Assembly (NCBI GenBank): GCA_029263895.1
Contig: JARIDO010000027.1
Span: 60,924-124,923, forward strand
Reading direction: 5' to 3'
DNA from: Sporosarcina sp.
GTDB lineage: Bacteria; Bacillota; Bacilli; Bacillales_A; Planococcaceae
Length of the DNA: 64,000 nucleotides
The notes beneath the pieces were generated by a model, which searched no databases, had not been told where the DNA came from, and was given only the letters and a program-made list of their open reading frames with translations. Position 1 is the first letter of the stretch; each line of letters begins with the position of its first letter. Both the position numbers and the translations under genes were made by a program. Positions 8,978 to 62,853 of the stretch are shown here, piece by piece.

Positions 8978-9158
8978 CTCGCGCGCCCGCAAATCGAGTG
9001 AATCGCCCGAAAGCAGAGTCCGCGCGCACGTAAATCGTGTGAATCGCCCGAAAGCAGGCTCCGCGCGCCCGCAAATCGAGTGAATCGCCCGAAAGCAGTG
9101 TCCGCGCGCCCGCAAAACGGTCGAATCGCCCGAAAGCAGATTCCGCGCGCCCGCAAAT
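8978..9158 (+). repeat. 41-bp tandem array, locus A (4 full units plus a half unit)
   Basis: GCCCG cores of the second half-unit at 9005, 9046, 9087, 9128 (exact 41-bp steps); first half-unit cores from 8985 to 9149 in 41-bp steps. Confidence 0.95.
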
Positions 9159-9271
9159 CAGCTGCACTAAAAAATCAACAATCAAAAAATATCAAATCAA
9201 AATCTTTTTTATAGTCATATACTGGTATTTGAACGTATAATGAAAAGTATGTATGAAAAGGGGGGAAGCAC

Positions 9272-18513: not shown

Positions 18514-18700
18514 AACAACTGTTTTCAATTAATTAATTAGTTGCAAGGCAGACGCGAATTTGTTATCATATTCAAGTATGGTAAATGCCATCTGCTGCAT
18601 ATACGATTGGTAAATACGGGTCGTGTAAGGCATCAGTCTTTTGCAATACCCCTATAACATACTCTGTTCCAGATGGTTCAGGGCGAGAGGAGAGAGACAG

Positions 18701-28417: not shown

Positions 28418-28528
28418 CCCGCGCTTGTGAAATTGCGTTTGCGCCCGCAAAGTTGTTCAAACGCCCGAAAGTGTATCTCGCGCGCCCGCAAAGTTGCGCA
28501 AACGCCCGAAAAGTTTCGCGCGCGTGTC
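28418..28528 (+). repeat. 41-bp tandem array, locus B (2 clear units plus degenerate flanks)
   Basis: GCCCG cores at 28443/28463 and 28484/28504: 20-bp half spacing, exact 41-bp unit step. Confidence 0.85.
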
Positions 28529-46494: not shown

Positions 46495-46827
46495 ATGTTA
46501 AAAAAAGCAATCCCGTTCGTCCTTATTTCTGGTATTGCACTTGCAGCATGTGGAAATACCGAAACAGTTCCAAATAACAATGAAACACCTATGGAAGACA
46601 AAACAAGACAAATGACGCCAGAAGTTCACGACGAACAAACAGGGCCTAACATGGATGGACTCAACGAAGGAACAGACACCAACCAAAATCGTACCAACGA
46701 AGGAATCATGAACGACGATACCAATGGTACAAATAACACGACGAATGAGGATGGCGCAATCGAAGAAGGAACATCGAATGACGACATCATGGAGAATGAT
46801 CTCAACCGCAATAACAACAACCGCTAA
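46495..46827 (+). CDS. Small Asn/Thr/Asp/Glu-rich lipoprotein
   Basis: MLKKAIPFVLISGIALAACGN lipobox; RBS GGAGGG; start trimmed to ATG 46495. Confidence 0.8.
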   Translation: MLKKAIPFVLISGIALAACGNTETVPNNNETPMEDKTRQMTPEVHDEQTGPNMDGLNEGTDTNQNRTNEGIMNDDTNGTNNTTNEDGAIEEGTSNDDIMENDLNRNNNNR

Positions 46828-46837
46828 CCACAAGCCA

Positions 46838-46870
46838 AAAAACCGTCTCCTGCAAAGGAACGGTTTTTTC
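46838..46870 (+). terminator. Terminator after lipoprotein gene
   Basis: AAAACCGT...ACGGTTTTTT. Confidence 0.8.
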
Positions 46871-46913: not shown

Positions 46914-47417
46914 GCGGGCATTCGCCCGCAAATCCTGTTTAACGCCCGAAAGCATCACCCGCGCGCCCGCAAAGTGGCTGAAACGCCCGAAAGCGTCACC
47001 CGCGCGCCCGTAAAGTGGTTGAAACGCCCGCAAGCATCTCCCGCGCGCCCGCAAAGTGGTTGAAACGCCCGAAAGCGTCTCCCGCGCGCGCGCAAAGTGG
47101 TTGAAACGCCCGAAAGCATCACCCGCGCGCCCACAAATGTGCAGAAACGCCCGAAAGCATCACCCGCGCGCCCGCAAAGTGGTTGAAACGCCCGCAAGCA
47201 TCACCCGCGCGCCCGCAAAGTGGTTGAAACGCCCGAAAGCATCACCCGCGCGCCCGCAAAGTGGTTGAAACGCCCGAAAGCATCTCCCGCGCGCCCGCAA
47301 AGTGGTTGAAACGCCCGAAAGCATCACCCGCGCGCCCGCAAATGTGCAGAAACGCCCGAAAGCGTCTCCCGCGCGCCCGCAAATGTGCAGAAACGCCCGA
47401 AAGCGTCACCCGCGCGC
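46914..47417 (+). repeat. 41-bp tandem array, locus C (12 units, exact register)
   Basis: Second-half GCCCG cores at 46944, 46985, 47026, 47067, 47108, 47149, 47190, 47231, 47272, 47313, 47354, 47395. Confidence 0.98.
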
Positions 47418-47460: not shown

Positions 47461-47490
47461 AAAAAAGCTGTTCAAAAAGAACAGCTTACT
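47461..47490 (-). terminator. Terminator of the minus-strand ywpF-like gene
   Basis: AAGCTGTTC-AAAAA-GAACAGCTT with T-run on minus strand. Confidence 0.85.
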
Positions 47491-47962
47491 TATGATCTTT
47501 TTTTAAACGTGGACGAGAACGCATGTCGCTTTCAAAACGTTCCAATAGCTTATCACCAGCGAGACCTTCACCGATTAATTCTTCCAATAGTTGTTCAGCA
47601 TACTGACTTCTTGCGCGCTTCAATCTTCCTTTCAACAACACGGAAATGTTATCGCCTATCTGTCTCAAACTATCAACAGCAACTCGAAATGCGGCAGGTT
47701 CATTTTCAGGATAAGAGATGACAACTTTTGCATCTAAAAGTACTTCATCTGCTTTCCACTGTTCAAATGTTTCTTTATATTGCTTATCAATAAACATTTC
47801 AAGAATCCACATATGATGACTGTTCTCTTGGTTGATAATAATGCCGTCGATGAGGTGGAAGTCTTGTACTAGATCATCTTTCACAATTCCAACGGATATC
47901 ATTTTGAATGATTTCACAAACGCTACCTCCACTCTTATTTCATTTGAGTATACCATAATCAA
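47486..47962 (-). CDS. ywpF: YwpF-like protein
   Basis: KSFKMISVGIVKDDLVQDFHLIDGIIINQENSHHMWILEMFI; fabZ/ssbB neighbourhood. Confidence 0.75.
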   Translation of the reverse strand: MIMVYSNEIRVEVAFVKSFKMISVGIVKDDLVQDFHLIDGIIINQENSHHMWILEMFIDKQYKETFEQWKADEVLLDAKVVISYPENEPAAFRVAVDSLRQIGDNISVLLKGRLKRARSQYAEQLLEELIGEGLAGDKLLERFESDMRSRPRLKKDHK

Positions 47963-62554: not shown

Positions 62555-62853
62555 CTTCGCAAATTGTGTCTCGTGCCCGGCAAGTGATGCAAATCGCCCG
62601 CAAACTGTATCCGTGCTCCCGAAAAGCGGTGTGAATCGCCCGCAAGCTGCGTCTCGCGCCCGAAAATTGATGCAAATCGTCCGTAAGTAAACTGTGTCTC
62701 GCGCCCGAAAAGTGGTGCGAATCGCCCGCAAATTGTGTCTCGCGCCCGAAAAGCGATGCGAATCGCCCGCAAGCTGTGTCCGCGCGCCCGAAAAGTGATG
62801 CGAATCGCCCGCAAGTTGTGTCTCGCGCCCGAAAAGTGATGTGAATCGCCCGC
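62555..62853 (+). repeat. 41/42-bp tandem array, locus D (7 units, swapped half-unit cores)
   Basis: Unit CTCGCGCCCGAAAAGTGATGCGAATCGCCCGCAAGTTGTGT; second-half cores at 62596, 62638, 62679 (GTCCG), 62724, 62765, 62807, 62848. Confidence 0.95.

Follow-up and report, generated by a model that had tools for sequence, protein, structure and literature searches.

The window, the whole 64,000-nucleotide stretch analysed here (positions 60924-124923 of contig C22), belongs to a draft genome of 2.31 Mb in 51 contigs that is 79% complete. The gap between a gene for a small Asn-rich lipoprotein-like protein and the convergent gene ywpF was found to contain a tandem repeat array, followed on each side by the intrinsic terminator of the neighbouring gene (Table 1). 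Both terminators folded far better than shuffled sequences, and the lipoprotein-like protein had no match in Pfam. Neither strand of the array was found to fold clearly better than its shuffles (z +1.16 and -1.59), no Rfam match was found at the array, and the search for inverted repeats gave one chance-like pair only, with no terminal inverted repeats or hairpins. A coding repeat was rejected because the 20/21-bp steps do not hold a reading frame and because the array is overlapped, on both strands, by short ORFs only. An inverted-repeat family was likewise rejected, convincing inverted repeats being absent from the array. Elsewhere in the window, an ordinary element, the L31-Firmicutes ribosomal protein leader (Rfam RF03156), was found at 18662-18692.

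Table 1. Positions of the array, its neighbours and related features. Positions are those of the window unless a locus of genome G217 is named.
Feature	Position	Strand	Remarks
Same-family array	8980..9161	+	41-bp period
Same-family short array	28442..28515	+	four cores, spaced 20/21 bp
Upstream gene, small Asn-rich lipoprotein-like protein	46496..46827	+	ORF
Intrinsic terminator of the lipoprotein-like gene	46837..46869	+	T run, fold z -5.0; immediately precedes the array
Repeat array	46923..47417	+	24 cores CGCCCG[ACT]AA in steps of 20/21 bp; about 12 dimers, each of 41 bp
Example 41-bp unit	46965..47005	+	half-units of 20 bp and 21 bp, both beginning CGCCCG[ACT]AA
Intrinsic terminator of ywpF	47465..47487	-	fold z -4.2; directly downstream of the array
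YwpF-like protein (PF14183), downstream convergent gene	47486..47917	-	E 1.5e-41
Same-family array	62558..62853	+	41/83-bp period
IS256-type transposase gene (G217)	L231:4806-5999		
IS256-type transposase gene (G217)	L233:1360-2553		
IS256-type transposase gene (G217)	L233:3498-4691		

Anatomy of the array

The run of cores was found to extend from 46923, and not from 46914 as in the preliminary description, to about 47414, and the core strand is the leading strand by local GC skew. The 41-bp repeat unit described there was recovered by TRF (period 41, 11.6 copies, 92% matches, 46941-47417), but it is an alternation of two half-units, CGCCCGCAAAGTGGTTGAAA (20) and CGCCCGAAAGCATCACCCGCG (21), and not a simple 41-mer. 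The core CGCCCG starts one base 5′ of the GCCCG start used for the series 46944+41n, which had been given for 12 second-half cores, and exact GCCCGMAA was indeed found at all 12 positions from 46944 to 47395. Three first-half cores were altered, containing GCCCGTAA at 47006, GCGCGCAA at 47088 and GCCCACAA at 47129. The substitutions lie mainly in two linker spots, as had been noted, with the core columns at about 1.00 in column counts made without a core filter. The motif GCCCGMAA matched 45 times in the window against 2.18 expected, a number reached by 0/100 shuffles, and 43 of these matches fall inside the four arrays of the window.

A genome-wide family of arrays

The four arrays of the window were found by TRF to have best periods of 20, 41 or 83 bp. 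In the draft genome as a whole, core pairs with a gap of 10-12 bases were found 172 times, against 0 for the reversed pattern, and 37 runs were traced around these pairs, merging into 32 loci. The family core was CGCCCG[ACT]AA followed mostly by A (CGCCCGHAAA). Across the 32 loci the core-to-core distance was 20 or 21 bp, that is, two helical turns, in 430/434 intervals (220 of 20 bp and 210 of 21 bp); of the other four, two measured 19 bp and the remaining two, of 40 bp and 62 bp, mark places with missing cores. A distance of 22 bp was permitted in the tracing and none was found. Outside the arrays, single cores were not enriched in the window (2 against about 2.2 expected). About 10 arrays stand at contig ends of the draft, where copy numbers are uncertain, and the gene context classes of the arrays rest on simple ORF calls.

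The strict 41-bp length first described does not extend to the family, other arrays of which step nearly always by 20 bp or by an irregular 20/21 bp. The preliminary description had offered very recent expansion or selection on spacing as the choice. Some recent local expansion of the window array is likely, since the array is fairly homogeneous, but expansion alone is insufficient for the family, because 20/21 bp is kept in almost all intervals of 32 loci whose spacers are nearly unrelated and because sister species keep a period of 20/21/40/41 bp at the ywpF gap with different sequences.

Constancy of the core and drift of the spacer

When, within an array, unit i was compared with unit i+2, the eight fixed core positions were found to differ by 2.8-3.7% whereas the spacer differed by 22-23%. 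In a sister genome, G217 (complete, single contig), neighbouring units differed by 42-67% at the inner spacer positions and by 0-3% at most core positions. The spacer consensi of different loci were 34-39% identical, against 25-29% after shuffling. The chains of cores and spacers were seeded with the core, and the column count was therefore repeated on TRF-delimited arrays without a core filter; the window array and the G217 arrays then contained core columns at or near 1.00, with the variable columns in the spacers, whereas arrays with indels (C48, L133) lose their register under such slicing and are unreadable that way. The positions of the unit thus do not drift alike, as a neutral minisatellite would have them do (core 3%, spacer 22-23%), and this contrast of core and spacer, together with fixed spacing, is not what free drift of a minisatellite predicts.

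Arrays in other species

YwpF was found in 68/68 genomes of the genus searched. Downstream of ywpF, 15/29 sister loci fetched had an array whose period lies close to 20, 21, 40 or 41 bp (about 20.5), that array being short in L132 and L148 and cut by a contig end in L155. The other 14/29 loci had no array in the gap, so the window array is dispensable. At least seven cores were found at this gap, namely CGCTCATAA, CGCGCGCAATG, ACCGCTCGTAT, GCGCTCAAGA, CGCATAA, AAACGACYAAAG and TAGYYGAGTTT, and all read in the direction of the window array save the last, the orientation of which is uncertain. Close relatives mostly share a core; the sisters L133 and L137, supported in a tree from which the placements of L151, L149 and L155 were not used, differ in theirs. 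Freely varying unit lengths in homologous arrays, which the preliminary description had named as evidence against it, were looked for in this species-level comparison and were not found. The ywpF gap of L139, L140, L150, L153 and L156, species without the array, was found to contain another repeat element (GCGCAGGGCGCC ... GTCTAGCCGTAT).

One dominant core was found at many loci in each of three other genomes: CGCCCGAAG in G210, CGCACGAAA/CGCCCGAAA in G255 and GCGCTCAAGA in G217. G210, from the same genus as the window, has arrays that agree in coordinates and sequence with those of Sporosarcina sp. ACRSL. At least two cores were present in G210, and in G217 several smaller families shared the period. 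Further array families of G217 (L161, L163, L166, L167, L170, L176 and L177), with a period of 20-21 or 40-42 bp, contained quite different cores (GAACTC, CGATAA, CGCATAAA, CGCTCGTTTATT and GTGGTAAA). In an unbiased 400-kb sample of G217, 18/22 intergenic tandem repeats had a period of 20-21, 40-42 or 60 bp, and one further intergenic tandem repeat had a period of 122 bp. Arrays of the same form were also found in other Bacillales, for example Heyndrickxia sporothermodurans; matches in high-GC and other distant genomes may be chance or coding repeats and were not counted as members. The G217 arrays were further found to contain three near-identical IS256-type (Mutator family) transposase genes, with apparent target duplications of 8-10 bp falling on the array core, and the arrays seem to be landing sites.

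Orientation relative to replication

The core was found on the leading strand, as judged by local GC skew, in 29/32 loci of the source genome (binomial p 2.6e-6). In G217, where the core GCGCTCAWGA, with a 20-bp period, gave 355 pairs, 31/32 loci among the stretches read were on the leading strand. The polarity of G217 flips between 430 kb (-) and 475 kb (+), with dnaA at 445.5 kb, and its GC skew reverses within 400-540 kb and again within 2.00-2.14 Mb. Perfect five-core runs in G217 gave 59 matches on the + strand, all at 474-1548 kb, and 54 on the - strand; the 41 of the latter that were listed occupy 1.8-100 kb and the part beginning at 2.498 Mb, and the remaining 13 should lie beyond 2.523 Mb, the list being ordered by position. 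A clustering of the G217 arrays near the origin is suspected and is not claimed, coverage being uneven. The sole G217 array seen on the lagging strand (G217:C1:69733-70198) contained alternating GCGCTCAAGA / GCGCTCATGA cores, unlike most others. In G255, 11/16 arrays followed the leading strand, which is not significant.

As genes also favour the leading strand, gaps between convergent genes were chosen, where gene direction gives no cue. In these gaps 10/11 arrays of the source genome and G217 were on the leading strand; the set comprised five source-genome arrays, the window array, for which the gene caller had mistaken a spurious ORF for that of the lipoprotein, and those of G217 (4/5). Against an assumed gene bias of 80%, the pooled polarity of 60/64 gave p 0.002, with loci that are not fully independent. 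The core strand serves as lagging-strand template and was found to fold less stably than its complement in 32/32 source arrays and 16/18 G217 arrays, a difference that is modest and without a matched control. The polarity may reflect function, mode of spread or stability.

Interpretation

The reading that we favour, and hold tentatively, is that the array forms a row of binding sites for a putative sequence-specific host DNA-binding factor. The 9-10-bp core (CGCCCGHAAA here) would be the part that the factor reads, and the spacer of about 11 bp would only set the distance, so that adjacent cores would face the same side of the helix at an interval of two turns, allowing bound molecules to touch one another, as in cooperative binding. 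Intergenic gaps contain dozens of such arrays, oriented along the direction of replication. A trans-acting sequence-specific factor, be it this host factor or, with less weight, the enzyme of a selfish repeat, is favoured because the core is constant and the spacer keeps its length only, at two helical turns, and because a shared core with unrelated spacers is hard to obtain by whole-unit gene conversion, which carries the spacers along. Since the array sits between two terminators, the putative factor would act on DNA and not on RNA, and since oriented rows stand in intergenic gaps, it would most likely act on the chromosome as DNA. We infer, besides protein binding and phasing for cooperative binding, a chromosome-level role in organisation, segregation or a fork-related process. 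That 15/29 sister species keep the period and direction in the ywpF gap, with different cores, was counted for this host-factor reading, whereas the 11/16 polarity of G255, the multiple cores in G210 and G217, the 14/29 sister gaps without an array and the lack of enrichment of single cores in the window were counted against it.

It is unlikely that the arrays are instead a selfish repeat, from which the host gains nothing, with the core as the recognition site of an enzyme (a nuclease, an HUH transposase or a recombination factor, perhaps acting on the single-stranded lagging-strand template) that copies, expands or spreads them. The patchy presence at the ywpF gap between species, the replacement of the core between L133 and L137, the leading-strand polarity, which would then come from the mode of spread, and the near-identical dimers, as signs of local expansion, are consistent with such a repeat; the spacers, however, differ between loci, which argues that whole units are not copied from locus to locus, and the array has no terminal inverted repeats or hairpins. 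The same dimers reveal local duplication, and together with the weaker folding of the core strand they would also suit a neutral minisatellite born of replication slippage, in which the polarity would arise because the strand more prone to structure persists only where it does not serve as lagging-strand template. This is nevertheless quite unlikely, since drift does not give a core that changes 6-20 times less than the spacer of the same arrays, an identical core recurs at many loci with unrelated spacers, and the 20/21-bp spacing is kept while the sequence is lost; the folding difference itself is modest.

An array that is transcribed and serves to end, stabilise or regulate transcripts would agree with the co-directional gene that precedes most arrays and with a core strand that is C-rich like Rho-utilisation sites. 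An RNA element was nevertheless rejected as very improbable, in view of the two intrinsic terminators that flank the window array, its lack of a folding signal and of an Rfam match, and the orientation that persists between convergent genes. Repeats collapsed or expanded in assembly might be expected in a draft of 51 contigs with about 10 arrays at contig ends, and the exact copy number of the window array may be wrong, but an assembly artefact is hardly credible as an explanation, the same architecture being found in the complete single-contig genomes G217 and G255.

The host-factor reading can be extended, with considerable doubt, to a fast-evolving satellite-like system of chromosome-wide, replication-oriented binding arrays, in which the word would change between species together with the putative factor while the two-turn geometry stays. 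Such a system, if true, would be the bacterial equivalent of satellite DNA with rapid turnover and of the proteins that bind it.

Comparison with known repeat systems

No description of these arrays was found in the open-access literature. A CRISPR array contains a conserved repeat of about 20-40 bp with unique spacers between the repeats, whereas the present core is of 9-10 bp, the spacer of 11-12 bp, and the spacers recur within the array; together with the lack of an Rfam match, this sets the array apart from CRISPR, and no cas genes were found among the neighbours tested (FabZ-like, lipoprotein-like, YwpF and SSB). The palindromic REP, BIME and ERIC repeats do not fit either, given the single chance-like inverted pair and the lack of a folding signal. 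Bacterial VNTR minisatellites are also tandem and intergenic and the present arrays likewise appear to expand and contract, but the latter contain a constrained core, the same at many loci, and have a replication polarity.

The iterons of plasmid origins and the phased repeats of partition sites consist of roughly 20-bp direct repeats that share one helix face and are read by an oligomerising protein. The present arrays share the repeat length and the helix face, and the reading protein would be a further likeness; in contrast, they are chromosomal and dispersed over more than 30 loci in gaps between ordinary genes, and the genes flanking the window array are housekeeping genes, with no replication initiator or partition gene beside it. 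KOPS/SRS and Chi are short species-specific motifs that run along the leading strand as single sites spread everywhere. The leading-strand orientation is shared (29/32 and 31/32; the 11/16 of G255 is not significant), whereas the core here occurs in phased arrays, with single cores at chance level in the window.

The STAR elements of Staphylococcus resemble these arrays most closely in kind, though not in sequence. In the part of the published account drawn on here, they are GC-rich short direct repeats found in intergenic tandem arrays at many loci, with locus-specific spacers, at different loci in different species and of unknown function (PMC3532100). The present arrays are likewise dispersed and intergenic, with locus-specific spacers, in a low-GC Firmicute. 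The STAR motif as given there is of 14 bp, T(G/A/T)TGTTG(G/T)GGCCC(C/A), with spacers of at least 40 bp (PMC3532100), against a 9-10-bp core every 20/21 bp here, and that part of the account reports neither helical phasing nor replication polarity (PMC3532100), both of which were found here. A shortened STAR motif, TGTTGNGGCCC, with one mismatch allowed, matched twice in the window, at chance level and never in the array, and a STAR element was rejected on this absence and on the core distance of 20/21 bp. Dispersed intergenic repeats such as STAR have been known for more than two decades without a function. The anatomy found here, with its constrained core, its spacer of fixed length and free sequence, its near-absolute polarity in two genomes and its change of core at the same gap, narrows the answers and points to a trans-acting reader, and this question is made testable by the use of array DNA as bait, with the relatives that contain different cores as natural controls.
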